From assembly GCA_030427925.1 (NCBI GenBank), contig JAUICJ010000025.1:1-43216 (forward strand): a stretch of DNA of 43,216 nt, given 5' to 3'. Below the pieces are notes generated by a model. It was given only the letters and a program-made list of their open reading frames with translations. It ran no database searches and was not told the DNA's origin. The position numbers and the translations under genes are program-made. Source of the DNA: Bacteroidia bacterium. GTDB lineage: Bacteria; Bacteroidota; Bacteroidia; Flavobacteriales_D; Sanyastnellaceae. Every line of letters begins with the position of its first letter. Positions within the stretch are counted from its first letter, which is position 1. Positions 5,596 through 37,287 of this stretch are shown here, piece by piece.

Positions 5596-5618
5596 TCGTT
5601 TGAGCACCGCGCTGGTGC

Positions 5619-5659
5619 AGCGGGCTATCCCTTCGCGGGGGTGGCCCGCTTATATTTTC
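5619..5659 (+). terminator. Rho-independent terminator of the 1436-aa gene
   Basis: AGCGGGC (5619-5625) pairs with GCCCGCT (5644-5650), with extra C/G pairing inside, followed by TATATTTTC. It lies 24 bases after the stop at 5595 and overlaps the stop codon of the convergent SRPBCC gene. The U-tract favours + strand use. Confidence 0.6.
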
Positions 5660-6135
5660 TGACGGTGCTGTTCTGCTTCCGAGGCCCCGGGGAAGATGCC
5701 TTTCAAGGCTTCTCCGCGGTAAGTGAAGATGCCATCGACCTTTTTGTTCAGCATCAACGCCCCCATGACCTCGCCGATTGGACCTGCCGGCAGCACGTAA
5801 TGCAGCACGTCGTCCATCCACACGCCCCCATCGCCGGGGGTGAATCGGTGCAAGTGATGCCAGAACCGATATGGCCCAAATCGCTGTTCATCAATGAAGT
5901 ACTTGCCATCCTCTGACTCCACGATTTCCGTCACCCACCGCATGGGAATGTTCAACAGCGGGCGGACCGTGTAACAAATGACGTGTCCCGCAAACGTGCG
6001 CTCCCCCCCACCGGACAAGATTTCAAAGGACATGTCCTCCGGCGTAAGGCGGTTCAGGTTTTCAGGAATGCTGAAAAAGTCCCACGCCTCCTCGACGGAG
6101 ATGGGAAGGAATTGGCGGGTGGTGAGTCGGTGCAT
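5650..6135 (-). CDS. SRPBCC-family ligand-binding protein
   Basis: The 161-aa product matches the COG4276-like SRPBCC (START-type) proteins often labelled cell division inhibitor or SRPBCC family. Its N-terminus (TTRQFLPISVEEAWDFFSIP) and centre (FIDEQRFGPYRFWHHLHRF) are characteristic. Such proteins have a hydrophobic pocket and are cytosolic; the ligand is unknown. The ATG at 6135 is preferred over a GTG at 6171, which would overlap the preceding gene. It is the last gene of the five-gene minus-strand unit beginning at 10229, 32 bases after the GH16 gene. No signal peptide is present, unlike its neighbours. Confidence 0.82.
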   Translation of the reverse strand: MHRLTTRQFLPISVEEAWDFFSIPENLNRLTPEDMSFEILSGGGERTFAGHVICYTVRPLLNIPMRWVTEIVESEDGKYFIDEQRFGPYRFWHHLHRFTPGDGGVWMDDVLHYVLPAGPIGEVMGALMLNKKVDGIFTYRGEALKGIFPGASEAEQHRQKI

Positions 6136-6167
6136 GCCGGTTGAAACCACCGAACAACGTCGGAGGT

Positions 6168-7418
6168 TCACTCGCAGGGCTCGCCGAAGCCGTTGAGCAA
6201 GAGGAGCAGGTCGGAAACGCTCACGACCAAGTCGGCGGTGAGGTCGCCTGGGCAGTTGCCGAGGCAGCCGAAATTGGACAGGATGAACATCAGGTCGGTG
6301 ACCGTCACGAAGCCGTCGCCGTTGCCGTCGGCGGGGCAGGTGGTGCAGTTAATGCAGGAGGCCCAGCAATGGGCAGGCAGGGTCAGCGCCGGCTGGCCAG
6401 GAAGGACCGCCACGCCGTAGTTGCCGTATTCGTCGCACGGCAAGTGATCGCAGGAGGAGCCGAGGGGCGCGCCGCCAATGGTGGACCAGCCGTTCACCGT
6501 GAAGAGGTATTCGTGTTCGCCGGAGGGCAGCGTTTCCGTTCGGATGTACGTGCCGTCGACGAGGGCCATGGGGGCGCATGTGCCACACCAGTTGTTGAAG
6601 GTTCCGTTGAGGTAAACGATGTCGCTGGGGCCTGCAGGGGTTGTCGACGCGTCGAGCTGGAAGGTCACCTGGGCGGTCGTGGTGGGGAGCGGTGGGGTCA
6701 GGTTGAAGTGGATTTGGCCTTCAACTTGGGCCAAATTCGTCGACGAAAACGTACAAAAATTGCCTCCGAACGTTTCCAATTCATTCGTCTCCCATCGGTT
6801 CGGATCCACCCCATCGCACGCATCCGTCCACACGAGCGAGAAGTTGTTCGCCGTCCCCGCTGTGCCCTCGCCCGGCGTGTAAGCATAGACGGAAATCTCA
6901 GCGTAAATGGACTGCGCTTCCATGAACTCCCAAGGCCCCACCCACGCCGGAGAATCCGCCGCCCACAAGTTCATCATGAGGCGCATCGGGTGCTGCAGCC
7001 CCCCGACGTACGGCGCATCCTGCACGTAGGCCAGTTCGCCGTCCACGAACCACCGCACCGCCTCCGGCTCCCATTCGATGGCGTAATCATGCAACCCGGC
7101 GTGCGGATTGAATTCGAGTGGATGGATGTACGTGTACGACTGAAGAAATGGGTAATGCGTCGTGAATTGGACCGAGCCGCTGAGGTTGCCGGTCATCTCG
7201 ATGTCGATTTCGTTGTTGACCGCAGGCCAATTGCAGTTGACGTCCCGATTGTACAGGAAGAAACTGCTGACCAAACCACTCCCCTCCGCCGACTGCATCC
7301 GCACCTCGAACCGACCGTAAAGAAACGCTTCCCGACTCTGCAACGCAGCGCTGGCACATTCCTGGGCCGCAGCAGTTACTGGAAACAGCAACAGCAGAAC
7401 CAACCCGCGCATGGTCAT
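6168..7418 (-). CDS. Secreted GH16 beta-glucanase with glycogen-binding-like and dockerin-like modules
   Basis: A signal peptide (MTMRGLVLLLLFPVTAAAQ) leads into a glycoside hydrolase family 16 domain (about 22-235). The retaining catalytic motif NEIDIEMTG is intact, with Glu70, Asp72 and Glu74. GH16 enzymes cleave beta-1,3/1,4-glucans such as laminarin or lichenan; the exact substrate cannot be read here. A CBM48/AMPK-like module follows (VYLNGTFNNWCGTCAPM). The C-terminus carries two Ca-binding EF-hand-like loops (DGNGDGFVTVTDL and a degenerate second copy) resembling a dockerin, bracketed by cysteines. No T9SS sorting domain is present. The ATG at 7418 overlaps the upstream stop as ATGA, implying coupling to the esterase gene; ATG 7412 is the alternative start. 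Confidence 0.9.
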   Translation of the reverse strand: MTMRGLVLLLLFPVTAAAQECASAALQSREAFLYGRFEVRMQSAEGSGLVSSFFLYNRDVNCNWPAVNNEIDIEMTGNLSGSVQFTTHYPFLQSYTYIHPLEFNPHAGLHDYAIEWEPEAVRWFVDGELAYVQDAPYVGGLQHPMRLMMNLWAADSPAWVGPWEFMEAQSIYAEISVYAYTPGEGTAGTANNFSLVWTDACDGVDPNRWETNELETFGGNFCTFSSTNLAQVEGQIHFNLTPPLPTTTAQVTFQLDASTTPAGPSDIVYLNGTFNNWCGTCAPMALVDGTYIRTETLPSGEHEYLFTVNGWSTIGGAPLGSSCDHLPCDEYGNYGVAVLPGQPALTLPAHCWASCINCTTCPADGNGDGFVTVTDLMFILSNFGCLGNCPGDLTADLVVSVSDLLLLLNGFGEPCE

Positions 7419-8491
7419 CGGTTTTGTTGAATCCAATGCAAGGCCGTCCCAAACCGTTCGCCCCAATCCCGTTCAAAATGGCGTCCGCCCGGATAGGGCT
7501 GCACAATGAATGACGCACGGGTGGTCCTCAAATAGCCTTCCATGTCGTCCACTCCCGGTTGCAATTGAGCCTCCAACCCCACCGTGCCGTTGTCGATCCA
7601 AATCGGCCCCGCATTCACGGGCCACTCCCTGCCCCTCAACTCCTCGGCATAATTGAAGTCGCGGTAACCAAAAGCGGGCGACATGCAAATCGCCCCATCG
7701 AACACATCCGGGTGTTCCACCAAAGCGATGGCCGAAATGAGTCCCCCCATCGACGCCCCCGCCACGGTGATGGGGATTTCAGGAGCCAGGCCATACTTCG
7801 CCATCACCTCCGGCACCACCACGTCCGCGAGCCACGCCACGTAGGCCTTCCCCTCCGGTCCGGGTCCGTAATCGGTGGATCGGTCGTCCGTGCAATCCAC
7901 CGCAACGGCCAACACCCCGACCCGTGGCGCCCACTTCATCAAGGTGTCGTCCACGCCCCAATCCACCCCAAAGTTCGCCGATTCAGGATCGAAAACGTTG
8001 CGGCCATCGTGCAGGATGACCAATTCGTGGAGCGTGTCCGAGGGAGGCACCCACGCCGTGACCAAGCGCGGCAACAACCCAGGCGGCGTCCACGTGCCAA
8101 GCGTGTCGACCTGGCCCGTGACCTGGCCCTGACGCTCCTTCGGCGCTGGCCCGTTGCTCCAGCCCCAAACGGTGTCGCGCACCACAGCACGGCCATTCAC
8201 CACCTCAAGGAGCGCGTTGTCCCGCTGAAATCCATTGGACTTCAGGCCTTCCCGCTCCCAAGACCCCAGCGTGAATTTGAATTCATGGGTCCCATCGGGA
8301 GCACGGGTCCGTCCGATCCACCGCTCGTCCCCATCGTGCTTCAAAAGCACGGCATCAGGCCGCCAGCCGGTCCAGCTTCCTGCCACGTATATCCGCTCAG
8401 AAGGATCCAAGCCAGGAGCCACCACTTCAAATTCCACGCCTTGCTGCGAACACGCCACCAAGGCCAAGAGGCCGAACGCGATCAGTCGCAT
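7415..8491 (-). CDS. Lipoprotein esterase with N-terminal starch-binding-like domain (esterase D/enterochelin esterase fold)
   Basis: The 358-aa product starts with a lipobox-type signal (LLALVAC, Cys15), so it is probably a lipoprotein. Residues about 18-100 resemble a CBM20/CBM48-like domain (IYVAGSWTGWRPDAV). An alpha/beta hydrolase of the PF00756 esterase family follows, with nucleophile Ser247 in GASMGG. Related enzymes remove acyl or feruloyl esters from glycans or hydrolyse siderophore esters; the neighbouring GH16 gene favours a glycan substrate. It overlaps the DsbA gene upstream by 10 bases and the GH16 gene downstream by 4. Confidence 0.87.
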   Translation of the reverse strand: MRLIAFGLLALVACSQQGVEFEVVAPGLDPSERIYVAGSWTGWRPDAVLLKHDGDERWIGRTRAPDGTHEFKFTLGSWEREGLKSNGFQRDNALLEVVNGRAVVRDTVWGWSNGPAPKERQGQVTGQVDTLGTWTPPGLLPRLVTAWVPPSDTLHELVILHDGRNVFDPESANFGVDWGVDDTLMKWAPRVGVLAVAVDCTDDRSTDYGPGPEGKAYVAWLADVVVPEVMAKYGLAPEIPITVAGASMGGLISAIALVEHPDVFDGAICMSPAFGYRDFNYAEELRGREWPVNAGPIWIDNGTVGLEAQLQPGVDDMEGYLRTTRASFIVQPYPGGRHFERDWGERFGTALHWIQQNR

Positions 8492-9279
8492 TCCCCGTTT
8501 GGATTGCAGACCGGGCCTTCGGCTGGCGGCTCAGGGTTCAACGTGGAGAGCACCCCGTTCAGGGCATCCTGGAACGCCTCCATCGGCTGGGCGCCCGAGA
8601 CCGCGGTTTCCCCATTGATTAAATAGAACGGAACGCCTCGAATGCCCAAGGTGCGCGATTCGTACTCATCCGTGCGCACATCGTTTGCGAGGTCAGCATT
8701 GTCCAATGCTTCCTTGGCCTGTTCGGCATTCAGCCCCACTTCGGCGGCGAGCCGCAGCAGCGTTTGCCGATCGTCCACGTTCGCCCCTTCCATGAAATGC
8801 GCTTGGAACAGGCGCTCCTTCATCGCGTGTTGCTTGCCTTGGAGTTTGGCCCAATGCATCAGCACATGCGCTTGGAACGTGTTCGTCCAAACCGACTGAT
8901 CCAGCGCGTACTCCAGTCCTTCCTCCCGGGCCATCGCCGACACGTACTCGGTCATTTGCTGCATCCGTTCCAGCGGCATGCCCTTCTCTTCCGCGAGCAG
9001 CTGAGCCACCGGCACATCCGTGCGGGTGACCCGATTCGGGTCGAGTTCGAAACTTTTCCATTCCACGCGAATGCTCAAGTTCTCCGGAAGGGTCGCCAGG
9101 GCGCGCTCCAGTCGGCGTTTGCCGAGGTAGCAAAAAGGGCAAACGATGTCGCTCCAAACTTCAATGTGAAGGTCCGGATTTTCAACGTGTTGGGGCTCGT
9201 GAGCGGTCGTTAACATCGGGATTTGGGCATTCATGAGAAAGGGGGCCATGCAGGCCAAAAAAGGGATCAATCGGTTCAT
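8482..9279 (-). CDS. Exported DsbA/FrnE-family thiol oxidoreductase
   Basis: The 265-aa protein has a signal peptide-like N-terminus (MNRLIPFLACMAPFLMNAQ) and a thioredoxin-fold DsbA domain of the FrnE/2-hydroxychromene-2-carboxylate isomerase-like group. The active site is C47-P-F-C50, followed much later by the cis-Pro loop RGVPFYLING. FrnE-type proteins are usually cytoplasmic, so export is unusual. The neighbouring secreted proteins are cysteine-rich, which makes an oxidative-folding role in the periplasm a reasonable inference. The ATG at 9279 forms an ATGA overlap with the stop of the T9SS gene upstream, which decides the start over the in-frame codon at 9291. Confidence 0.88.
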   Translation of the reverse strand: MNRLIPFLACMAPFLMNAQIPMLTTAHEPQHVENPDLHIEVWSDIVCPFCYLGKRRLERALATLPENLSIRVEWKSFELDPNRVTRTDVPVAQLLAEEKGMPLERMQQMTEYVSAMAREEGLEYALDQSVWTNTFQAHVLMHWAKLQGKQHAMKERLFQAHFMEGANVDDRQTLLRLAAEVGLNAEQAKEALDNADLANDVRTDEYESRTLGIRGVPFYLINGETAVSGAQPMEAFQDALNGVLSTLNPEPPAEGPVCNPNGECD

Positions 9280-10229
9280 CGCACCAACCATTTGGTCCCT
9301 GCACCGTCCGACGAAACCATCACATACAGTCCGGGGATTGCAGGGGCGCGAAACGGCGCGTCAGGCAACTGGGTCCAAGCGGCAATCCGCCGCCCACCGA
9401 GGTCGTACAAGGCGTATGCACCTGACGGCCATCCCGTGCTCGGAAGGGCACTTCCCGCGGCTGCGGCAGGGAGCCGGCGCGGCGTGCGTTCCTCCTCACC
9501 TACGTCCGTTACGCAGTCCCCTCCGTACAGGTCCCACGTGGTGATGGTGGTGCCTGCGGACTCGAGCGTCCACGTGGCGTGCGGAAAGCCCAGCGCCCCG
9601 TCGCTCCAACTCAAGTTCACGAATGCGTCGGTGCTGCAGGCCACCTCCAAGGTGTAGCAATCGGCTTGCGCGAGGCAGAGCGAGTCGCTGGTTGTGAACC
9701 AGTTGTTCGCTTCGTTGACGTTTAAGCTTGTGGACCAAAATTCACCCGTCCACCCGAGCGAAGCCAACGTGACCTCAACCGTTCCCTGTGGGGGAGCGTA
9801 CCCTTGGAAGGAAAGGCGGACGGGGAGGCACTCACCTGAGGTTTGGCCCGCCCACTCGAACGAACGCGCCTCGAACGCGTACGGAATGGCGCATGCCAAC
9901 GACTCACCGAACCCGGTCCAAAGCTGCAACGTGACCTCCTGCGCCTCAAGCGGCACTTCAACCGGTGCAACCCACTGCAAATCATGCACATTGACCCCGT
10001 ACAAGCCGAACAAATTAGGAGCTTCTTCCGCGAGTACGTTCCCTTCCGCGTCAAGCAATTTCCACCCCGGGTAATCGTAGAGTTCGTCGAAGGAGGTGTA
10101 TTCGGAGATGAGGCGGATTCGGTCCGCTTGGAACGGATCTTGCCACACCCCGAGCACCGCCAAATCCGGGCAGTCTTGTGCAAAGCTCACCGCACTCACG
10201 CCCAACATCAAAGCAACGAAACCCTTCAT
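9276..10229 (-). CDS. Secreted protein with degenerate T9SS C-terminal domain, unknown function
   Basis: The 317-aa product has a signal peptide (MKGFVALMLGVSAVSFAQ) and a cysteine-containing beta-rich body with no family I recognise. The last about 50 residues (AYALYDLGGRRIA ... GLYVMVSSDGAGTKWLVR) look like the final strands of a T9SS type A sorting domain, preceded by an Ala/Pro-rich linker, so outer-membrane export by T9SS is likely. A -7 element TAACTTGG lies 4 bases before the start, making this the first gene of the unit that continues with DsbA, esterase, GH16 and SRPBCC genes. Confidence 0.78.
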   Translation of the reverse strand: MKGFVALMLGVSAVSFAQDCPDLAVLGVWQDPFQADRIRLISEYTSFDELYDYPGWKLLDAEGNVLAEEAPNLFGLYGVNVHDLQWVAPVEVPLEAQEVTLQLWTGFGESLACAIPYAFEARSFEWAGQTSGECLPVRLSFQGYAPPQGTVEVTLASLGWTGEFWSTSLNVNEANNWFTTSDSLCLAQADCYTLEVACSTDAFVNLSWSDGALGFPHATWTLESAGTTITTWDLYGGDCVTDVGEEERTPRRLPAAAAGSALPSTGWPSGAYALYDLGGRRIAAWTQLPDAPFRAPAIPGLYVMVSSDGAGTKWLVR

Positions 10230-17756: not shown

Positions 17757-20117
17757 CTAGGAGCCGCACCCTTCGCTGTAGGCGACCAAAAGCTGAATCA
17801 AGTCGTTGACGTTGACCCCTCCATCACCGTTGAGGTCGGATCGGCCGCAAGGCGGTTCTGAAGCCCACGCCTCGCCCGATCCACAACCATACACCACCAA
17901 GAACTCGGTCAAATCTGCAGTGGATACGGTTCCGTCCGCGTTGATGTCACCTGAGCACGGAGCTGGCTGCATGCCCTCCAGCAGTTCCGTCCACTGGATT
18001 TCGGCCGATTGGTAAAAGGACAGCACAACGTCTTCATCGCCGTCACCGTCCACGTCACCGAAGGCTGCGTTTTGGGGGCCACTCCCCGCTGCCAATTCCA
18101 CCACCGATGCCGATGCCGCATGGTACAAGCGGGTGCGACCGCCACCGTATTCGCTCACCACCAGATCCGCAAAACCGTCCCCATCAGGATCGCCCACCGT
18201 GAGCCCCAAGCTGCCATTGAGGTCCGTGAAACCCACATCAACGGCTTCGGCAAAGCTCCCTTGCCCATCGTTCGTGAACTGCCGAACGCCCAGTTCATTG
18301 TAGCCCACACCAAACAGGTCCACATCCCCATCGCCATCTGCATCGCCTACAGCCAGGTCTTGTGCACTGCTAAGCGTGAGGATTTGAGGCGATTCGAAGG
18401 CCAACGTTTCCGGTGCGGAGCCTGCCGTACGAAGCCAAATGCGCACGTCCCCAGAGTTTTCAAAGCACGCTGCAAGGTCGATCAAGCCGTCTCCATTGAA
18501 GTCATCGGCGGCCACGGCCTCGCAACGACTTCCCGCATTCGTCATTGCGGTGGGAGCAGAGAATTGTCCGTTGCCCGTGTTCAAGGCCACCATCACGGCA
18601 GAGCCTTGCCAAGCTCCGGCTACGAGGTCGAGGTCACCATCCATGTCAAGGTCGCTCAGGACCACGTCATCGCATCCATTGATGTTCGGGATGAGCGTAT
18701 CGGAAAGGGCAAGGGCACCACTTCCATCGTTTCGCAGGCCCACGACGCGGTCGCCGTTGTAATCCGAGACCACCGCATCGAGGTCGCCGTCTCCATCGTA
18801 ATCGGCGAGGACCACATCGTAGCCGAAGTACGTGCCCGTGGGGACGTACTGCACTTCCCAGCCGCCGCCCGGTTGAGAGAACGCCACATTCAAGTACTCC
18901 GGGCCGCCGCCGAACACGTTCGTTCCTTGCACCATGGCCGCTGCGTCGGCGAGGCCATCGCCGTTCAGGTCGCCGACCGCCACGTTGCGGACATACTGCA
19001 ATCCTTCGAGGATGGGATGGTAATCGGTGGGGGTGCCGGCGGCATCGAAATCCCGCCAGCCGATTTGGCCTCGGGAACGCGAAGCCGTCAGCATCTCGGC
19101 CACGCCGTCCCCGTCGACATCAGCCAACGCCACGTCGAGGGCTTGTGGGACGTTGAACTCGATGGGATTTGGGAGGAAACCGCCGGCTCCATCGCCGAGG
19201 ATGAGTCCGCATTCGTTCGAGGTTTGGGCCGCGACGGCGATGTCCAAGTGGCCGTCGCCGTTGGCGTCCGCGAGGTCGAATTGTTGGGCTTTGGCGAACA
19301 GCCCCAAGGTGTCGGGCGGAGAGCCGTCGTTGTGCCAGCGGATGACGTACGTGTCGTCGACGCCGAGGATGAGGTCGGTGGTGGTGCCGTTCGGCAAGGC
19401 CATGACGGCGGAGAGTTTGCCAAAATCGGCTACGATTTGGTCTTCAGCAAAGCCCCCTTCCCCATCGCCATAGCGCACGCTCAAGGTGCCCCACGTGTAC
19501 GAGCCCACCAACCAATCCAGCGCGCCATCGGCGTTCCAATCGGCGAACAGCACCACCGCTGCACCCGCGAGCTGCATGGGCGTTTCGAACTCAGAAACCG
19601 CGCCCGAACCTGCGCCGAGCAACAGCACCACCTCCCCGGATTGCGAATCCGCATAGGTCACATCGAGGTGGCCATCGCCGTTCACGTCAGCGATGTCGAG
19701 CCGAAAGGGATTGGGGCTGGCGCGCAATTGCACCGGTTCGGCCAACGAGCCGTCCTCCAGCTGTTCGAGGAACACCAGCCCGCCTTCCTCACAGGCCATC
19801 ACATCCATGCGCCCATCGGCGTTCCAATCCACCACCCGGAAGTCGTTCCAATCGTCCCCCATGGCCGCAGGGTCAAACAATTTCACCCAGCCAAAGGCCC
19901 CGGGTGCGGTTTGTTCAAACCAGGCCAACTGGTTGTTGCCATTCGCAGCTGCGATGACATCGAGGTCTCCATCGGAATCGAAATCCGCCCATTCCACCGT
20001 GCCTGCGGAAATGAGCCGGTCCACCACGCGCTCTGCAGGTGCGAAAACAGGCGATTCTCCTTGACCCAAAGCCAAAGTCGGCGCGCACATCAGCGCAATG
20101 ATTGGAAAGCGAAGCAT
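17757..20117 (-). CDS. Secreted FG-GAP/VCBS propeller protein with dockerin-like C-terminus
   Basis: The 786-aa product starts with a signal peptide (MLRFPIIALMCAPTLALGQ). I count thirteen Asp-rich loops of the form DxDxDGxxD along the body, close to the fourteen expected for two seven-bladed beta-propellers, each loop a likely calcium site. The last about 65 residues carry two EF-hand-like loops (DINADGTVSTADL and DLNGDGGVNVNDL) bracketed by cysteines, resembling a dockerin and the tail of the GH16 protein at 6168. No T9SS sorting domain is seen. A surface or binding role is inferred. The ATG at 20117 is chosen because TAATTTTG precedes it by 3 bases. Confidence 0.85.
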   Translation of the reverse strand: MLRFPIIALMCAPTLALGQGESPVFAPAERVVDRLISAGTVEWADFDSDGDLDVIAAANGNNQLAWFEQTAPGAFGWVKLFDPAAMGDDWNDFRVVDWNADGRMDVMACEEGGLVFLEQLEDGSLAEPVQLRASPNPFRLDIADVNGDGHLDVTYADSQSGEVVLLLGAGSGAVSEFETPMQLAGAAVVLFADWNADGALDWLVGSYTWGTLSVRYGDGEGGFAEDQIVADFGKLSAVMALPNGTTTDLILGVDDTYVIRWHNDGSPPDTLGLFAKAQQFDLADANGDGHLDIAVAAQTSNECGLILGDGAGGFLPNPIEFNVPQALDVALADVDGDGVAEMLTASRSRGQIGWRDFDAAGTPTDYHPILEGLQYVRNVAVGDLNGDGLADAAAMVQGTNVFGGGPEYLNVAFSQPGGGWEVQYVPTGTYFGYDVVLADYDGDGDLDAVVSDYNGDRVVGLRNDGSGALALSDTLIPNINGCDDVVLSDLDMDGDLDLVAGAWQGSAVMVALNTGNGQFSAPTAMTNAGSRCEAVAADDFNGDGLIDLAACFENSGDVRIWLRTAGSAPETLAFESPQILTLSSAQDLAVGDADGDGDVDLFGVGYNELGVRQFTNDGQGSFAEAVDVGFTDLNGSLGLTVGDPDGDGFADLVVSEYGGGRTRLYHAASASVVELAAGSGPQNAAFGDVDGDGDEDVVLSFYQSAEIQWTELLEGMQPAPCSGDINADGTVSTADLTEFLVVYGCGSGEAWASEPPCGRSDLNGDGGVNVNDLIQLLVAYSEGCGS

Positions 20118-20120
20118 GCT

Positions 20121-20128
20121 CAAAATTA
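20121..20128 (-). promoter_or_regulatory. -7 element of the FG-GAP gene
   Basis: TAATTTTG on the minus strand, an exact TAnnTTTG match, is followed by AGC and the ATG at 20117. Confidence 0.55.
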
Positions 20129-29939: not shown

Positions 29940-29970
29940 AAAAAGGGGCCTCCCGTTGTGGAGGCCCTTT
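29940..29970 (-). terminator. Rho-independent terminator of the Dab operon
   Basis: GGGCCTCC and GGAGGCCC flank a 6-base loop; on the minus strand the hairpin is followed by CCTTTTTCTG. It starts 4 bases after the stop of the DUF2490 gene at 29975, and lies upstream of the esterase promoter region (29798-29939, otherwise without recognised features). Confidence 0.85.
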
Positions 29971-29974
29971 CCGT

Positions 29975-30661
29975 TCAGTGTGCTTGCCAAGTGCGATGGA
30001 CCGAAACCTGTCCGATGGGGCTGACCCGCCATCCCGCATCCAGTGCATCCCGTTGGTGCAACGCTGTGAGTTGCACCCGCCAGCCCGAATCGAAACGCCG
30101 TCCTACACCGACAGCATGCCACGTGCGGCTGCAGGACGTGAATCGGTAGTCACCGTCTTGGTCTCCCCACCATTCAACAAACCCCGCAGCGTACCAGCTC
30201 CCATTGCCCCAAGAGAGCGGGTGGGTAGCTGCCACCCGAAGGCGAAGTCGGTTCAGGCGTTGGGTGAGGTCACTGGAGGCAATCCGTCGCTGTTCTTGCC
30301 GAATCCGAACGGCCCACTTCCAGCGTTCATCGCCCCCTTTCATCGCAAGTTGTTCCCATCCATTCCACTCCACTCCCCCTGTGGAAGAACCGACCCACGT
30401 GCCACCGAGAGCACCCTCGAATTGAGGCGTAAATGCCCAATGAACGGCTGGCCGAACGATCGCAAGCGCCTGCTCTTCGAACAAACCCCACGTGCGTTCG
30501 TGCAATTCCATGGAGAACGCCAGCGGACGACTTCCCACCCAATTCAAATCCACCATGCCCCAAGCACCCGGTGCGAGCGTTACTTCGCTTTGGCTCCATG
30601 CGGGACTTCCCCCTGAAATCGCGACGCTGGCCAACACCAAGCGCAATGCCCTTCGGATCAT
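29975..30661 (-). CDS. DUF2490-type predicted outer-membrane protein of the Dab operon
   Basis: The 228-aa product has a signal peptide (MIRRALRLVLASVAISGGSPAWSQ, cut after about residue 24) and alternating beta-strand patterns matching DUF2490: GAWGMVDLNWVGSRPLAFSM, RPAVHWAFTPQFEGALG, then RLRLRVAATHPLSW and FVEWWGDQDGDYRF. DUF2490 proteins are predicted outer-membrane barrels of unknown role. The ATG overlaps the SulP stop as ATGA, tying it to the inorganic-carbon operon, and a terminator follows at once. A channel or accessory role for anion entry is inference only. Confidence 0.8.
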   Translation of the reverse strand: MIRRALRLVLASVAISGGSPAWSQSEVTLAPGAWGMVDLNWVGSRPLAFSMELHERTWGLFEEQALAIVRPAVHWAFTPQFEGALGGTWVGSSTGGVEWNGWEQLAMKGGDERWKWAVRIRQEQRRIASSDLTQRLNRLRLRVAATHPLSWGNGSWYAAGFVEWWGDQDGDYRFTSCSRTWHAVGVGRRFDSGWRVQLTALHQRDALDAGWRVSPIGQVSVHRTWQAH

Positions 30662-32229
30662 GACGCCATTCGCTTCCGGGCCGCCTTGGGATGATCGCTC
30701 AACAGCGTGAGCCCTTCGCTCCCTGACCACGTAAATTGACCACCAGCCCGGTTCACTTCCATTTCCCACCGCTGCAGCACTTCAAAGAAGGAATGGTCCA
30801 TGAAATACAAGGCGTCCAAGTGGAGCACCACCTTCGAGGTCAGTGGGATGCTTTGGAAGATTTTTTGATGCCCCAAAATGGTCGTGAACACCGCCACTCT
30901 GCCCAATTTGACATGCGCAACGGCCCCTTCGCGCCAGACGGTGGCTTGGGTTTTGAACAGTTCCTTGAAGCGCACACCGCGGGCGAGGTGGAACGCCAAC
31001 TTCACCAAGATGCCTGCGGCCACACCGAGCAACAGATCTTCCAACAACGTTACGGCGATGGTGACCAAGAAGATCGTTAATTGGTCTTTCCCGATGGCGT
31101 ACACCCCTTTGAACTCATTCGGGGAAGCCAGGCGAAATCCCGCATAGATCAGCATTGCAGAAAGGGCCGCGTTCGGAATGAGCTCAATCCAAGGAATGAC
31201 CAGCAGCATGGCGATCAGCAAGAACAAGCCATGGAAAAAGTTGGACCATTTCGTTCGAGCCCCAAATCCAACGTTGGCGCTGCTTCGAACCACCTCCGAA
31301 ATCATCGGCAGTCCACCGAGTAGCCCCGAAAGGGCATTCCCCGCTGCCAATCCGGTCAAGTCAGCACTCGGATTGGCCTTGCGGCCTTGAGGATCCAATC
31401 CATCCACGGCCTTCACCGTCAGCAGCGACTCCAAGCTGTTTACGAAAAGGAACATCACCACGTACTTCCAGAAGGCGAACGTACCGATGGCCGTGAAGTC
31501 CGCATGCAGCCCGAGGTTGCCCCAGAAATCGCCGATGTGCACCAAGGAATACGACGGTTCCGATTCGCTGAAATGCCAATACAGCGAAAGCGGCACGGCA
31601 ATCAAAAGCACCACCATCGGCCCCGGAACAGAGCGCAACGCCTTCCACGGCAATCGCGGTTGCAGCACCAAGATGAGCAGGCTCAACACCCCCACGATCC
31701 CAATGTGCCAATGAGCGTGGCTGATGAAGCGCGGGATGTCCAACAAAAGTTCCACCGGCCCCTCCCCTGCATAAAGCGACGGCTCGTCGCCCAAGAGCAC
31801 CGGGATTTGTTTTGCGATGATGATGATGCCAATGGCGGCCAGCATGCCGTGCACCACCGAGTGCGGAAAGAAGTCGCTGAGTGAGCCGAGTTTGAAAGCC
31901 CCGATGAGGAACTGAAGCAGGGCCATCACGACGATGACGCCTGAAGTGGCTTCCCATCCCAATTCCGCGATGGACGCAGCGCAAATGGTGATCAGACCCG
32001 CTGCCGGTCCTTTGATGGTCATTTCTGCCACGTTGAAGAAACTCACGAAGAGCCCTCCTATCATGGCCGTAAGGACGCCCATGGCAGGTGGAAAGCCCGA
32101 CGCCTTGGCAATGCCCAGCGATAGCGGAAGGGCTAAGAGGAAAACGAAAAAACCGGACAGTGCGTCCTTTTTTAGGTGAGCTTTGAAGCCCGATGCTCCC
32201 GATGCAGAAGCGGAATGTTGAGGATTCAT
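30658..32229 (-). CDS. SulP-family inorganic anion transporter (probable bicarbonate permease) with STAS domain
   Basis: The 523-aa membrane protein has the SulP signature: SGFFVFLLALPLSLGIAKAS and FPPAMGVLTAMIGGL near the N-terminus, then GPAAGLITIC, many hydrophobic segments and a cytosolic STAS-like domain at the C-terminus (about 440-515, containing VVLHLDALYFMDHSF). SulP proteins import sulfate, bicarbonate or other anions by Na+ or H+ coupling; the upstream DabAB genes favour bicarbonate. It follows dabB by 18 bases and couples to the DUF2490 gene. No sulfate-assimilation gene is nearby. Confidence 0.9.
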   Translation of the reverse strand: MNPQHSASASGASGFKAHLKKDALSGFFVFLLALPLSLGIAKASGFPPAMGVLTAMIGGLFVSFFNVAEMTIKGPAAGLITICAASIAELGWEATSGVIVVMALLQFLIGAFKLGSLSDFFPHSVVHGMLAAIGIIIIAKQIPVLLGDEPSLYAGEGPVELLLDIPRFISHAHWHIGIVGVLSLLILVLQPRLPWKALRSVPGPMVVLLIAVPLSLYWHFSESEPSYSLVHIGDFWGNLGLHADFTAIGTFAFWKYVVMFLFVNSLESLLTVKAVDGLDPQGRKANPSADLTGLAAGNALSGLLGGLPMISEVVRSSANVGFGARTKWSNFFHGLFLLIAMLLVIPWIELIPNAALSAMLIYAGFRLASPNEFKGVYAIGKDQLTIFLVTIAVTLLEDLLLGVAAGILVKLAFHLARGVRFKELFKTQATVWREGAVAHVKLGRVAVFTTILGHQKIFQSIPLTSKVVLHLDALYFMDHSFFEVLQRWEMEVNRAGGQFTWSGSEGLTLLSDHPKAARKRMAS

Positions 32230-32247
32230 GGAATTCGAGTTGAAGGG

Positions 32248-34146
32248 TTACGCGGTCCGATTGGGAACGCCAAGGGGAGTCCGGGCATCCGGACCGAGGA
32301 ACAAACGGGCGTACAAGCGCACGAGGGCGATGCCGCCGAAGATGAACGTGATCGCATTGAGCGCAGCGAGCACGGGTTGATTTGCGTGGATGTGACTGAA
32401 AATCAAATCTTCACCGATGAACGAAAGCGAAATGGGAAAGCCCATGACGCTGAGGAGCGCAGGAATGAACAAGGCGTGCAGAACGGGGGCGTGCACGACC
32501 TGTCCTTGGTAGGTGGAGAGGCTGTATCGAGCGTTGGGTTGCCGTTTGATTTGGACCAAAACCCAGCCTCCCAACGCCGCACCACCCGCGATTCCACTCA
32601 AGTACCAAGCTACGTGATCGAAGCCAAAATGCTCGTTCAACGAAACCGCCAAAGCGACCCACAAATGGCTCATGATGACCAAGATCCACACGACACCTGG
32701 GGACTGCCGCTCCGTAAAGGCCCGAAAAACCAAGGCCATGGCCAAGGCCGCGAACAGGGCCGGTAGCACCGCTTGAACGGCCGAAGGCAGCACTTCTTGC
32801 ACCCACCAAGCCGACCACCCCAACCCATACAGCGGCAGCAACACGAACACCGCGTTGCGACCGTTCAGGAAATCGAGGCGATGGCCCAACGCCTTTACCG
32901 GCTTGAACACCATCCGACTCACCACCCGGTCCAAGTGCCACTCCTGCATCGCCCGGCGTTGCACGTGCAAGCGCCAGTTTTCGGGAATCCACGACCACGA
33001 AGATGGGGCTTCTTCGCGGTGGTGGTAAAACTGATCTCGGATGCGGTAACTCACGATTGAAGGGCTGGCCAGCAATTGATACGATCTTAAAAACGCATTG
33101 CCCACAGCATGCAGCAGAACCAGTGCATGCCAACCGAGCGCGAGCTCCACGAACATCAGTCCGATTTGGACGATGGAGGAATACGCGATTTGGGATTTGA
33201 TGTTCGACTGCACCCGGGCCGTGAAAAAGGACAGGATGGCCGTCACGAGTCCGATGAGTCCGATGAGGATGCGGGCTGGGATTTGGTGTTCCCAAAATGG
33301 CGCCGTCCGCAACAGCAAAAAGACCCCCATGTGCACCGCGAGCGAACCATAAAAAATGGCACTCGACGGCGTGGGCCCTTCCATGGCCCGGGGAAGCCAC
33401 GAAGCAAATGGCCCCTGCGCCGATTTCACGCTCGCTGCCACGAGCAAAGCCATCGAAATGAACAGGCCCTCTGAGCTGTGCCCTTCCAGATGCGCCAGAA
33501 CGAGTTGGGCATTGTGCAATCGGGCAAAGGTGACGTTCTCGTGCCAAAGGTGGTGGCTTGCCCACATCGCTAGCAGAATCCCCACATCCCCGATGCGGTA
33601 GATGCTGAACACCTTCACGGCATTGCGCACGGGCAAGTAGCGTGTCCGGTAAAAAGCAATCAGCAAGAAGGAACTGAAACCGAGCACTTCCCAACCAATG
33701 AACAGCGTTTCGAAATTGCCCGAAAGCAACGTCCACACGTATCCGAAATAAAACAACGACACGGTCACGAAATACCTTCGGTAGCCGGGCTCTTGATGCA
33801 AGTATGCACTGCTGTACCGGATGATGAGGGCATGGAGCAACGACCCGACGACTAAGAAGGCCGCGCTGTCCTTGTCGAAATACAAGTCAATGAGGAACAC
33901 GTAAGCGTCCGATCCGTAGACTTCAAACTCGGGCACATCGATGGCGTGGCCTCCGTGAAACAGCCAAGCCGCCACACCGCCAACGGTCCAAAACATTTGG
34001 ACCAACGCAGCGCCGAGCACCACCCAATGGATTGCGCGCTCTTTGCGCTCGGGAATCAATTGGGCCAACACCATGCTCAGCAGGGGAAGAGCCAAGGCGA
34101 GGAAAAACGAGGCCTGCACCCAATCATACAAGTTCGCGGCACTCAT
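32248..34146 (-). CDS. dabB: DabB: NuoL/MrpA-like proton-conducting membrane subunit of the inorganic-carbon pump
   Basis: The 632-aa polytopic protein belongs to the proton-conducting antiporter-like family of respiratory complex I subunit L and MrpA: LLSGNFETLFIGWEVLGFSS, EGPTPSSAIFYGSLAVHMGV and IAYSSIVQIGLMFVELALG are the conserved helices. Alone among such genes it sits next to a DUF2309 gene, the hallmark of DabB, which couples proton flow to DabA. Other complex I or Mrp genes are absent, which rules out those systems. The ATG at 34146 overlaps the dabA stop (ATGA), implying tight coupling. It is longer than a minimal DabB. Confidence 0.9.
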   Translation of the reverse strand: MSAANLYDWVQASFFLALALPLLSMVLAQLIPERKERAIHWVVLGAALVQMFWTVGGVAAWLFHGGHAIDVPEFEVYGSDAYVFLIDLYFDKDSAAFLVVGSLLHALIIRYSSAYLHQEPGYRRYFVTVSLFYFGYVWTLLSGNFETLFIGWEVLGFSSFLLIAFYRTRYLPVRNAVKVFSIYRIGDVGILLAMWASHHLWHENVTFARLHNAQLVLAHLEGHSSEGLFISMALLVAASVKSAQGPFASWLPRAMEGPTPSSAIFYGSLAVHMGVFLLLRTAPFWEHQIPARILIGLIGLVTAILSFFTARVQSNIKSQIAYSSIVQIGLMFVELALGWHALVLLHAVGNAFLRSYQLLASPSIVSYRIRDQFYHHREEAPSSWSWIPENWRLHVQRRAMQEWHLDRVVSRMVFKPVKALGHRLDFLNGRNAVFVLLPLYGLGWSAWWVQEVLPSAVQAVLPALFAALAMALVFRAFTERQSPGVVWILVIMSHLWVALAVSLNEHFGFDHVAWYLSGIAGGAALGGWVLVQIKRQPNARYSLSTYQGQVVHAPVLHALFIPALLSVMGFPISLSFIGEDLIFSHIHANQPVLAALNAITFIFGGIALVRLYARLFLGPDARTPLGVPNRTA

Positions 34147-36665
34147 GACGCGAAGGATTGCAACGGTTCCACCTTTCGAAGCACTTCGACCGAATCCCGG
34201 CGTCCCGCGAAAGCGTTCGTCCAGTTTCGGATGGATCGGGGTGGGGTGAATTCCGGTTCGTATCTACGGAATCCATTCCCCTCCCATCGGAAAAACAACC
34301 CGCTATCGGGCTCGCGCACCACGGCATGAACCCATCCGTTTTCGATCCACTCCAACGTCGCAGGGAACGCCTTCAAGGTGCGCTCAACGCGCGCGACCGG
34401 AGCGTCCACCACGACGAGCAACCGATAGGGGTTGTGGATGTTGACCATTTGGAGCGGAAGCCCTGTGCGCAAGTCCCCATCCATGCCGTTTGCAACACCG
34501 AGCAAGCCCACCACGTTGTGCGGCAACTTGCTCCCCGCACCGAGGCGGTCGTTGTCCACTTTCGAGAAGTAGTATTCGAGGTTGATGCCCCCACATACGG
34601 GAACGACGGCATTCAATATGCCTGCGAGCAGGGCACCATCGGGATCGCTCGCGGCGTCGTATGAATGCAGGAACGCCGTTCGGTCAAGGAACAAGTTGCG
34701 ACTTGCGGAACGCTTCCCGACCAAGCACAAGTGGTTCGTGGCGTGGTTCCATTCCGGCCGAGGCTCGAAAAGCCGCTGGGCCCGCTGGCGAACCTGCGCG
34801 TGGATGCGGCGGGCGGGTTGCCCCTTGGAAATCCCGTCGAACCGGCGAGCGCGCTCCACGGCATTGGCCTCCAGCGCTCGTTGCATTCCGGGCCATTCTC
34901 GGTCATGAACATGCTGAGCGAACGCAGGCCAAATCGCAGCGTCGTAAAAAAAGAACGCATCCCGCGTGGTGTCGTGAAGTCCACCGATGAACCACGTAGA
35001 AAGTGGAACGCGAATGCCGCGACCCGCAAGTCCCAATCGGACCTCCGGGTGGTTCAACATCGCAGCTGCTACACGAGCGTTGACGGAGCCTGAACGGCCG
35101 CTGCATGCGCCACAATCGTAGCCCGCATAGTGCGTGTTGTTCACGCTGCTCGCTCCGTGCCCCATCAAATAAACCACGGGAGCAAATCCGTCCACAAGCC
35201 CCACGCTTTGGAGCAACACCGCCATGGCATTCACCGCTTCATCGAGCGTGAATCCATGGGCGCCCTCCAACGCGGGATCGCCATCCCAATAATGCAACGT
35301 ACCCTCGGGATCCATGTGCCATTCACTTCGCACCATGGCCGGCGAATCGGACGGGGCCAGTACGTTCTTCGCCAACCGCCAAGCGGCGGCAAGTCCCAAG
35401 CCTTGTGCTGAAATCCACCCACCCAGCAGCCCATGCGAGTGCCGTGACATGTGGGCATCCCGAACGTGACGCTTGGCCGCATTCGTTTCGGTGACCCGAT
35501 GCGTTGGGGTCACGGGGCCAGGGCAGCACTTCGTTGCGAAATGCGCGCTTGCAGGCTGAAAGGTGCAATCGATTTGGAAAAACCCCGCCACACCATAGGT
35601 GCTTGCCGCGGGTTGCTCCGCCTCCAAGTGGCGTCGAATGGAACACTCTCGGTCGTCGATGCAGAACAGCGCTTGGTATGCCAAATCCGCCGGCATTCCC
35701 TTGTGCTTCGACCGATCAACGGGCTGACGTCGCTCGGCATCCAGGCCCGACAGGACTTGGTCGTAGCGCGTCCATTCCCACGCCTCCTGCCAACAGGCCA
35801 AAATCCGATGGTGCCGACGCAGGCGGCTCTCCCCCTCCGGTACCGGCCAGACAGGCCGCAAGGCGCCCCAGTGGGCACCCTCCATGGACTCCAACGCATC
35901 CCATTCCATGAGCAATTCCAACGCAATGAAATCCTTCAGCGACACTTCACGGCGGTCCATGAGTCCGCTCGGATTGCGCTCCAAGTGAGCCACCAGTCCC
36001 GACCACCCCGGATGCGCAAACGCTTGGTCCACGAGGTAGGCGTGCCAAAACGATTCGTCCTGCACCAATTCCTGGAGCAACTCCCGCAAATCGGGCTGCT
36101 CGTGGGAATTCAAGTACGCTCGAGCGCGTTTGCACTGAAAGACCCCGCCCGCTCCGGGCGATTCCATGGCGCGGACTGCAGACCAGAGTCCGCCGGTGTT
36201 TGCGACCTGCATTCGCCAAATCCCCACTCCCTGATCCAAAAACCCTGCGATGAGGGCAAACAAGCGCGTGTGGACGTACTTGTCGAGGTTGAGTCGCCGA
36301 TCCGTTTTCCACTGGCTCCGAATGGATCCGACGCGAGCAGGCGGCAATTGAGGCAACGGCTCGTTCAACAAGGCGGGAAGTTCGTCCTCGCTGAACCCAA
36401 GGCGCCGCATGGCGCGATCGAGTTGTTCCTTGGAAATCTCGCCGGTTTGCCAGCGTTTTCGAAAGAACTCAATGGGGGCATAAGTTCGGTGTCCCCACTC
36501 CCGAGCCGCCACCACCATGGCCTCATTGAAGGGCAGGTGTTGCAGGGCGTGCAAGGTGTTGTGATGGACAAAATCTTTGAGGGGTGCCTGACTCGGCAAC
36601 GTGTGATGCAAGTCATGCAAAAGGCGTTGCTCGTCGAAAGACGGGCTCGCTTGCCAACTGTTCAT
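34143..36665 (-). CDS. dabA: DabA: DUF2309 beta-carbonic-anhydrase-like subunit of the inorganic-carbon pump
   Basis: The 840-aa protein is a DUF2309/DabA homologue with conserved N-terminal LKDFVHHNTLHALQHLPFNE. The zinc-site residues are intact: Cys335 and Asp337 in FCIDDREC, His503 in YLMGHGASS and Cys518 in GYDCGACSG. The Cys-x-Asp and the His-to-Cys distance of 15 residues match the characterised DabA site as I recall it. DabA converts CO2 to bicarbonate in one direction, driven by ion flow through DabB, so the pair concentrates inorganic carbon. The ATG at 36665 is used; the in-frame codon 9 bases earlier is TTG. It lies 98 bases after the small gene at 36764. Confidence 0.94.
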   Translation of the reverse strand: MNSWQASPSFDEQRLLHDLHHTLPSQAPLKDFVHHNTLHALQHLPFNEAMVVAAREWGHRTYAPIEFFRKRWQTGEISKEQLDRAMRRLGFSEDELPALLNEPLPQLPPARVGSIRSQWKTDRRLNLDKYVHTRLFALIAGFLDQGVGIWRMQVANTGGLWSAVRAMESPGAGGVFQCKRARAYLNSHEQPDLRELLQELVQDESFWHAYLVDQAFAHPGWSGLVAHLERNPSGLMDRREVSLKDFIALELLMEWDALESMEGAHWGALRPVWPVPEGESRLRRHHRILACWQEAWEWTRYDQVLSGLDAERRQPVDRSKHKGMPADLAYQALFCIDDRECSIRRHLEAEQPAASTYGVAGFFQIDCTFQPASAHFATKCCPGPVTPTHRVTETNAAKRHVRDAHMSRHSHGLLGGWISAQGLGLAAAWRLAKNVLAPSDSPAMVRSEWHMDPEGTLHYWDGDPALEGAHGFTLDEAVNAMAVLLQSVGLVDGFAPVVYLMGHGASSVNNTHYAGYDCGACSGRSGSVNARVAAAMLNHPEVRLGLAGRGIRVPLSTWFIGGLHDTTRDAFFFYDAAIWPAFAQHVHDREWPGMQRALEANAVERARRFDGISKGQPARRIHAQVRQRAQRLFEPRPEWNHATNHLCLVGKRSASRNLFLDRTAFLHSYDAASDPDGALLAGILNAVVPVCGGINLEYYFSKVDNDRLGAGSKLPHNVVGLLGVANGMDGDLRTGLPLQMVNIHNPYRLLVVVDAPVARVERTLKAFPATLEWIENGWVHAVVREPDSGLFFRWEGNGFRRYEPEFTPPRSIRNWTNAFAGRRDSVEVLRKVEPLQSFAS

Positions 36666-36763
36666 GGGCTTCAATCAATGAGAAATACCGCACCCACCGC
36701 GCGCTTGCGCTGGGAACCTCGAGTCTTAAAGAAGCCGGAAGGAAGGTGCGTGCGGAATCCCCA

Positions 36764-37198
36764 TCACTCGCCGGCTGCTTCAGCCAACAGAGGTATTTTC
36801 CAAGATTGATAGAGCAGATAAGCGTGCGGCTTCAGGGCCAAGCGCACCAAGTGTTGCAACCAAGCGACCGCTTGGGCGGTGCGGCAGTGTTGCGCTGGTT
36901 CGCCCGCATTCACGGCATGAGCCGAACGACAGGCCGTCAGGGAACCGCCTTCGATGCCTTCCGCCTCTTCTTCCGCCTCGGCGAGTTCGGCCAAAAGCCA
37001 ATGGAATCCCTGAGCGCCCTCGGCATCGTTTCCCGTGACTTCGCAACCTGCCCCGTTGGATGCCGTGAAGTGCAGAACGTCCAGCGCGCGCGCTCCACTC
37101 ATGGCAGAAGGCAACAGGATGCCTACCAGTCCGAGCAGAAAGAACCACCTCGACCACAATTGGCCGGTTTGTTTCATCAACGATGGCTCGATGCGCAT
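36764..37198 (-). CDS. Small membrane/exported protein upstream of dabA
   Basis: The 144-aa product has one hydrophobic N-terminal segment (about residues 18-32, FFLLGLVGILLPSAMSG) followed by a region with Glu-rich helix (LLAELAEAEEEAEGIEG) and a C-terminal part with LVRLALKPHAYLLYQSW. It resembles no family I can name. The start at 37198 is chosen because TATTTTTG lies 4 bases upstream; ATG 37177 is an alternative. It probably heads the transcript of the Dab operon, since 36665 has no comparable promoter. The hydrophobic segment could be a signal peptide or an anchor. Two shadow frames cover the same bases, but only this one has a promoter at its start. Confidence 0.65.
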   Translation of the reverse strand: MRIEPSLMKQTGQLWSRWFFLLGLVGILLPSAMSGARALDVLHFTASNGAGCEVTGNDAEGAQGFHWLLAELAEAEEEAEGIEGGSLTACRSAHAVNAGEPAQHCRTAQAVAWLQHLVRLALKPHAYLLYQSWKIPLLAEAAGE

Positions 37199-37202
37199 GC
37201 GG

Positions 37203-37210
37203 CAAAAATA
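37203..37210 (-). promoter_or_regulatory. -7 element of the Dab operon
   Basis: TATTTTTG on the minus strand is an exact TAnnTTTG match, followed by CCGC and the ATG at 37198. Confidence 0.55.
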
Positions 37211-37251: not shown

Positions 37252-37287
37252 AGCAAAAAGGCCGGTGCTCAATCGAACACCGGCCTT
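37252..37287 (-). terminator. Rho-independent terminator of the CBS gene
   Basis: GGCCGGTG (37260-37267) and CACCGGCC (37278-37285) flank a 10-base loop; on the minus strand the hairpin continues into TTTTTGCTTTTG. It lies 21 bases after the CBS gene stop and separates it from the Dab operon. Confidence 0.85.

Follow-up and report, generated by a model that had tools for sequence, protein, structure and literature searches.

Contig JAUICJ010000025.1 of a Bacteroidia bacterium (GenBank assembly GCA_030427925.1), all 43,216 nucleotides of which are referred to below as the window, carries on its minus strand (37198-29975) a run of five genes encoding a small exported protein, DabA, DabB, a SulP-family transporter and a DUF2490 outer-membrane β-barrel. 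It can be read, with a probability of about 0.6, as a full set of genes for inorganic-carbon uptake in a member of the Bacteroidota that lacks RuBisCO, the functions being predicted throughout; no RuBisCO large subunit was found in the genome to which the window belongs. In the proposed chain, bicarbonate would enter the periplasm via the DUF2490 barrel, or elsewhere via a larger porin, and would be taken across the inner membrane by SulP. DabAB would hydrate CO2 in the cytoplasm at the expense of an ion gradient, presumably using an ion path of its own and a transition-state histidine. Both forms of dissolved inorganic carbon would end as cytoplasmic bicarbonate for carboxylases. If this reading is correct, the inorganic-carbon chain, from the outer membrane to the cytoplasm, is contained in one operon of a RuBisCO-less bacterium.

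The five-gene structure and the gene overlaps given in a preliminary description of the window were borne out. The dabA and dabB genes overlap by ATGA, SulP follows dabB after 18 bases, and the DUF2490 gene overlaps SulP by ATGA. The four larger proteins all scored above the curated Pfam cut-offs, while the small protein had no Pfam match above cut-off and none in NCBIfam or PHROGs. A better signal-peptide start of the small open reading frame (ORF) is Met8 at 37177. The components are as follows:

36764..37198, minus strand: small exported protein of 144 amino acids, with a signal sequence, an acidic cluster and the C-terminal motif HAYLLYQSWK
36666..36763, minus strand: spacer between the small gene and dabA, with a long predicted stem (z only -1.2)
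34143..36665, minus strand: DabA, Bacteroidota subtype (PF10070, 707 bits against a curated cut-off of 25)
32248..34146, minus strand: DabB, NuoL-like membrane subunit (PF00361, 134 bits; PF00662)
30658..32229, minus strand: SulP anion transporter, probable bicarbonate carrier (PF00916, 176 bits against a cut-off of 23.2)
29975..30661, minus strand: DUF2490 outer-membrane β-barrel (PF10677, 73 bits against a cut-off of 29.8)

Within the order, 36 of 150 genomes encode DabA, and within the class 78 of 395 do. Gene neighbourhoods were mapped in the 36 dabA-positive genomes of the order and at 80 named loci, the best 80 of at least 571 confirmed. The Bacteroidota type of DabA was present at 106 loci; 89 of them had enough downstream sequence, and the 17 that were too short were left out. 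L106, L132 and L164, equal to L050, L062 and L037, respectively, were dropped as copies. The preliminary description had made its view of the small gene and the DUF2490 gene depend on conserved linkage to dabAB, and the survey found it: throughout the Bacteroidota, dabAB has the small gene and a gene for an outer-membrane barrel as linked neighbours, and this linkage is strongly conserved. Of the 36 dabA-positive genomes of the order, 13 have a DUF2490 gene inside the dab operon, both on one contig. These genomes hold only one to six DUF2490 matches each, and the linkage is therefore far above chance.

No published account of dabAB with SulP, DUF2490 or a porin was found in the open-licence literature searched, and likewise none of the HYC_CC_PP proteins discussed below; the operon is a new arrangement within the known DAC systems. 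Felce and Saier reportedly described, in 2004, SulP transporters with carbonic anhydrase, which also place SulP in an inorganic-carbon setting. SulP–β-carbonic anhydrase pairs are present here too, but in the window operon SulP joins DabAB and an outer-membrane barrel. MpsAB, as presented in PMC8552792, is a DAC relative supplying inorganic carbon in a heterotroph, although its host, Staphylococcus aureus, has no outer membrane.

The outer-membrane barrel and SulP

An outer-membrane barrel is encoded in the same gene run at 54 of the 74 loci with SulP and at none of the 15 loci without it (Fisher p 8.5e-8, n=89). After thinning at 70% DabA identity the counts are 34 of 48 and 0 of 8 (p 2e-4), both p-values being generous for loci related by descent. 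The barrel belongs to DUF2490 at 32 of the 89 loci and is a porin of ~450 residues at 22, with both occurring together at none. The tie of the barrel to the dab operon suggested earlier stands as regards conserved linkage, but the barrel goes with SulP and not with DabAB. SulP is in turn tied directly to DabAB in a single case, L035, where one open frame (5437-9621) encodes a SulP-DabA fusion of 1,394 amino acids followed by genes for DabB and DUF2490.

Searches by phmmer with the window DUF2490 protein as query gave almost no matches, so the family was followed with iterative profiles. A quick tree built from 57 DUF2490 proteins requires, on its well-supported branches, six or more switches between dab-linked proteins and others, and the barrel slot was therefore probably filled more than once. 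The window protein occupies a long, uncertain branch of this tree, in which L091 and the second L143 copy were labelled as not linked though they lie near the operon. Comparison of positions by eye found no DUF2490 gene adjoining SulP outside the dab loci; the nearest such pair is 6.7 kb apart with opposite strands (G009:C57), and a weak 38-bit SulP match lies 1.9 kb from a DUF2490 gene (G133:C6). It is highly improbable that the DUF2490 gene is a passenger without a functional tie to the operon. The occurrence of a DUF2490 match (E 0.001) somewhere in all 36 dabA-positive and 20 dabA-negative genomes would suit a passenger, but different DUF2490 lineages appear to have been placed repeatedly beside SulP, another porin replaces DUF2490 in the same slot, and the tables of barrel against SulP already disfavour the idea.

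Two further observations concern these families. At L067 (7592-8353; G015:C9) a DUF2490 gene directly precedes a β-carbonic anhydrase gene, with no SulP or DabAB labelled in the surrounding 16 kb. The SulP of the dab operon has about 700-720 residues at L052, L056, L060, L062, L070 and L071, with ~200 residues past the STAS domain that gave no Pfam family in the four tested.

The AlphaFold2 model of the window DUF2490 protein, made with 24 relatives, has a mean pLDDT (predicted local distance difference test) of 89.4 and comprises 12 strands after the signal helix, the first of them very short. The closest solved folds by VIA, with the ties given below, are the KdgM-type porins VhGalP, NanC and KdgM (Z 15.1-15.5 over 157-179 residues), and Foldseek places NanC first (E 8e-5). 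The alternative porin of ~450 residues was modelled with a lower pLDDT (79.9) and is nearest to OprP (E 6e-13), a phosphate porin with an arginine ladder, with general porins close behind. Sequence identity of the two barrels to KdgM, NanC and VhGalP and to OprP and general porins, respectively, is ~10%. Eleven columns of the DUF2490 alignment are invariant, among them five arginines and three glutamates, and strand alternation suggests that these charged residues face the lumen. The family is given as a putative porin family, TC 1.B.81, with function not established, in PMC4827864.

The preliminary description had proposed an outer-membrane pore. The barrel of the model, the porin-like fold matches and the replacement by a porin make this reading well supported, with conduction itself predicted. 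In our reading CO2 passes the outer membrane unaided and bicarbonate does not, so that an operon importing bicarbonate by SulP would profit from an anion pore of its own, and the barrel most likely feeds bicarbonate to SulP.

Several observations weigh against this scheme. A barrel is absent from 20 of the 74 SulP-containing loci. At L142, which was too short downstream to be counted, DabB is followed directly by DUF2490 with no SulP visible, and the SulP-less Runella loci L127, L135, L136 and L148 hold a short DUF2490 gene on the opposite strand. L147, scored as lacking SulP, contains SulP-DUF2490-SulP at 3947-8567 on the opposite strand, divergent from dabAB. The DUF2490 model ties with PcoB (Z 15.2) and with the autotransporter barrels BrkA and NalP (Z 14.5). 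A SulP gene beside a β-carbonic anhydrase gene in the window genome means that the dab operon is not the only route of this bacterium, and the substrate of SulP is not readable from its sequence. We found no experiment that addresses transport, localisation or arrest for these genes.

The operon might serve another anion or pH homeostasis, with SulP carrying sulfate or a carboxylate and the barrel acting as its general porin. The score of SulP against the BicA equivalog NF050096 (110.7 bits) falls far short of the cut-off of 880, and two of the nearest solved folds of the barrel, KdgM and NanC, are sugar-acid porins (KdgM and VhGalP are so titled). The tight coupling to DabAB, the SulP-DabA fusion and the pairing of other SulP genes in these genomes with β-carbonic anhydrase make such a role improbable.

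The Bacteroidota type of DabAB

DabA of the window has the complete zinc site that had been described for it (C335-x-D337 ... H503-x14-C518), with D337 and R339 as the dyad. It was aligned with DabA2 of Halothiobacillus neapolitanus in 145 rows, 142 of them distinct, and the rows were grouped by overall identity, position 658 and its neighbours being left out. The zinc ligands C351, H524 and C539 and the D353-R355 dyad (DabA2 numbering) are kept in 145 of 145 rows. Position 658 is His in all 131 window-like proteins (His641 in the window) and Leu in all 14 DabA2-like proteins, which include DabA2 itself and five from the same order. According to PMC13144422, this position is strictly Leu in 150 DabA2 homologues and corresponds to the canonical Gln/His site of β-carbonic anhydrases. 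The gene order is DabA-DabB at 104 His loci and DabB-DabA at five Leu loci, with five His loci undecided. At the finger position, Glu444 in DabA2, 103 of the 131 window-type proteins have Gln, the window included, a weak marker in that only 4 of the 14 DabA2-like proteins have Glu.

The membrane subunit differs as well. Site correspondence was checked by direct alignment with the DabB2 chain, and copies were excluded. In place of DabB2 H260, H343 and K347, DabB of the DabAB type has Tyr, Asn and Arg, each in 95 of 96 proteins and also in the window, and Glu144 of NuoL, which corresponds to Ile151 in DabB2, is kept in 96 of 96; five DabB proteins of the DabBA type keep His, His and Lys at the three sites. 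In DAB2, alanine at H260, H343 or K347 of DabB impairs activity, as PMC13144422 reports. Because three residues required in DAB2 are replaced, the coupling ion or its path may differ from that of DAB2. DAB2 (DabA2-DabB2, PDB 9rd0) shares with the window type the PF10070 and NuoL-like subunits, the zinc Cys2His site and the Asp-Arg dyad. It differs in the DabA residues at 658 (His for Leu) and 444 (Gln for Glu), in the DabB set Y/N/R/E in place of H260/H343/K347/I151, in the AB rather than BA order, and in the addition of SulP, barrel and small protein to the operon of the window type. Judged by sequence, the Bacteroidota DabAB forms a subtype of its own, in which sites of tested function carry other residues, a feature beyond those noticed earlier.

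These replacements would also fit a sodium-coupled bicarbonate importer, as proposed for MpsAB, in place of a proton-driven CO2 hydrase: Tyr, Asn and Arg at the sites required in DAB2 (95/96), Glu for Ile151 (96/96) and Gln for Glu444 (103/131). The zinc ligands and Asp-Arg dyad are nevertheless intact in 145 of 145 DabA proteins, and Glu444 is a weak marker, being absent from 10 of the 14 DabA2-like proteins too; a sodium importer is unlikely. A DabAB with other ion-path residues would bear on the proton-or-sodium question raised by DAB2 and MpsAB.

Among the DabBA-type loci, L040, L042 and L046 have another small upstream gene (~100-140 amino acids, alike by eye, with no signal seen). Candidate LysR-like regulators, recognised by reading of the sequence, lie beside L048, L055 and L063.

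The small first gene

Since phmmer with the window small protein gave almost no matches, a motif and iterative profiles were used for this family. A 10-residue C-terminal motif was learned only on order-level loci, with a cut-off passed by ~0.5% of 2,192 background ORFs, some of these being copies or likely family members; a 12-wide motif was dropped, as many motifs end 0-1 residues from the stop. The motif matches 23 of 27 order-level loci and 52 of 75 held-out loci, that is, 52 of the 60 with any candidate ORF, a count less blind than it appears in that width and seeds were picked after all sequences had been seen and some held-out loci are related to those used for training. Pooling gave the consensus PL[YF][ILD]L[FY][HCR][NS][WLF][KR], ending 1-5 residues before the stop in 67 of 75 proteins. 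A hydrophobic stretch near the N-terminus is present in each of the 75 proteins with the motif (by hydropathy, with no signal-peptide program), and 67 of them combine it with an acidic run; among 1,019 background ORFs only 24 have both. The last 20 residues are under strong constraint, with a ratio of nonsynonymous to synonymous polymorphism (pN/pS) of 0.09 against 0.44 in the middle (10 close pairs, some sharing members).

The geometry is regular. A clear acidic cluster is present in 54 of 63 non-redundant proteins, centred 54 residues before the motif end (interquartile range, IQR, 50-58), and the hydrophobic centre lies 107 residues before it (IQR 104-109). No acidic-cluster spacing as narrow as this arose in 2,000 random placements or in 200 residue shuffles. 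In 17 of 35 background ORFs with a signal and an acidic cluster, none used for the geometry, the cluster lies 51-62 residues from the end. Listing them showed six dab-upstream small ORFs under the motif cut-off and three copies, and the rest looked by eye mostly like further small leaders, two not. The small first genes belong to an unnamed class, in which the signal, the acidic cluster and the conserved C-terminal motif keep constant distances from one another. A motif-bearing gene occurs at 61 of 72 SulP loci and at 4 of 15 others.

Two consecutive prolines (PP) are found in the last 20 residues of 6 of the 75 dab small proteins, and the C-terminus of the window protein has none. Neither the window small protein nor four other dab small proteins matched HYC_CC_PP (NF047658). 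Proteins of the HYC_CC_PP type with a similar C-terminal PLYxLYC stretch are encoded at L152 (5222-5629), L118 (5284-5691) and L119 (4126-4545); those of L152 and L119 match NF047658 and that of L118 only looks alike. Downstream of the L118 gene are TonB-receptor-like and CopZ-like genes (matches below curated cut-offs).

The preliminary description had taken the small protein for an accessory factor. Its linkage to dabAB was confirmed, but a regulatory exported leader seems a closer match for it than a transporter component. By analogy it resembles the nascent-chain leaders CutF and MifM in being small, exported and first in the operon, with a conserved C-terminus near the stop and a short gap to the next gene; MifM also shares an acidic stretch. 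CutF is small and exported, bears a proline motif at its C-terminus and governs the gene that follows by a stalling-like hold-up of its export during translation, although the motif alone is not a strong stall, and CruR acts through Rho-dependent termination (PMC9973294); acidic residues of MifM are critical for stalling, and Bacteroidota candidate arrest peptides ending in proline are reported (PMC10987492). The dab small proteins differ in having an acidic cluster in place of a metal motif, another C-terminal motif and an inorganic-carbon target, and arrest is here only hypothesised. The window protein falls outside a CutF-like filter of PP in the last 15 residues (PMC9973294). Two of the features given for monitoring-type arrest peptides in PMC10987492 are present: an N-terminal localisation signal (75/75 by hydropathy), and a conserved C-terminus with a spacer of more than 30 residues. 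The position upstream of secA, secDF or yidC is not, as dabA or sulP follows instead.

We tentatively propose for the small first gene the role of a leader, exported during translation and tuning the operon; this is the least certain step of the scheme and less likely than not. Its C-terminal motif would slow translation, and the acidic cluster, expected to lie inside SecYEG while the motif sits in the ribosome tunnel, would let the export state, possibly the membrane potential through its pull, tune the operon. According to the review PMC6028853, acidic residues are driven through SecYEG by the membrane potential, which relieves SecM arrest, though it is not the sole force. The spacing in the dab small proteins would suit a device of this kind.

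Other results speak against a leader. In PMC6028853, basic and neutral segments also release SecM arrest, and simple pulling by membrane potential therefore does not fully explain that experiment. No candidate small ORF is present at 15 of the 75 held-out loci. A ribosome-footprint mask at the small-gene stop does not open the start of the following gene (change of -0.009 for 65 leaders and of +0.021 for 200 control gaps), attenuator-like terminators are rarer in the spacers (3 of 69) than in controls (81 of 485), and the window spacer has a z of only -1.2. Compared with control gaps, the spacers show slightly more folding (mean z -2.05, n=67, against -1.33, n=150), but no switch emerged; a Rho-type mechanism is possible.

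A serious rival, with a less than even chance of being right, is that the protein is a periplasmic or membrane-anchored accessory factor binding DabB, SulP or the barrel via its C-terminal motif. The strong protein-level constraint on the C-terminus and the fixed spacing would fit a binding peptide too, no RNA switch was found, and the gene goes with SulP loci (61/72 against 4/15). Against this, a small acidic ORF stays first at all four examined loci where SulP precedes DabA (L036, L121, L155 and L156, that of L121 failing the motif cut-off), a motif-like C-terminus is also found in the HYC_CC_PP proteins before TonB-receptor-like and CopZ-like genes, and acidic small proteins with another C-terminal motif open SulP–carbonic anhydrase operons.

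Returning to the leader, the broader suggestion that the small first genes are a new nascent-chain sensor class, reporting proton-motive force to operons with a transporter that consumes it, is somewhat unlikely. In that case one genome would hold two versions, a PLYxLFxxWK-like one before dabAB-sulP-barrel and a PP(E) one before sulP–carbonic anhydrase, the former controlling a DabAB with a rebuilt ion path and a β-carbonic-anhydrase-like His. Such leaders would add a possibly voltage-sensing class to the nascent-chain regulators, with two operons of one cell to compare.

SulP–carbonic anhydrase operons and operon boundaries

The window genome has one dabA and three SulP genes, with a β-carbonic anhydrase gene beside one of the other two SulP genes. 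Twenty non-dab SulP loci were picked non-randomly, mostly beside carbonic anhydrase, and 18 were counted, L196 and L213 being below the SulP cut-off; 17 of the 18 lie beside a β-carbonic anhydrase gene. A small exported ORF with PP in the last 12 residues opens 11 of the 18, against 22 of 1,904 pool ORFs (which include the 11), a pattern counted in the same data in which it was noticed. All 11 have an acidic cluster 45-58 residues before PP. The window genome's own such ORF (L195 3123-3476, contig C43) ends in PPSPPPRRSC and opens the SulP locus by β-carbonic anhydrase. More small ORFs with a signal, an acidic cluster and C-terminal PP were seen at L122 (17307-17657), L124 (17200-17550), L060 (353-679) and L116 (16583-16954).

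An exclusion between DabA and β-carbonic anhydrase was considered and rejected, as PF00484 is present in 26 of 36 dabA-positive and 14 of 20 dabA-negative genomes. In PMC8552792, the two are said to coexist rarely in one species, whereas in these dabA-positive genomes they often do.

The signals at the ends of the operon are as follows:

37258..37287, minus strand: terminator-like hairpin, the longer one, between the upstream CBS-domain gene and the small gene
37203..37210, minus strand: TATTTTTG, Bacteroidota-type -7 promoter-like element, read directly from the sequence
29946..29967, minus strand: intrinsic-terminator-like hairpin at the operon end, after DUF2490

The promoter-like element described earlier holds in part: TATTTTTG precedes the small gene and fits the Bacteroidota -7 consensus, but a scan of the window gave no sigma-70-type promoter on the minus strand, and the -33 element is absent at the expected distance. 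The terminator noted after DUF2490 is present as the hairpin 29967-29946, although, taken together, hairpins of this kind do not exceed the chance level of the window (14 found, 11.2 expected). Because terminator-like hairpins flank the operon on both sides, the CBS-domain gene upstream is probably separate from it. Elsewhere in the window, 17757-20123 and 1285-5595 encode large FG-GAP repeat proteins, the second also with a Fib_succ_major domain.

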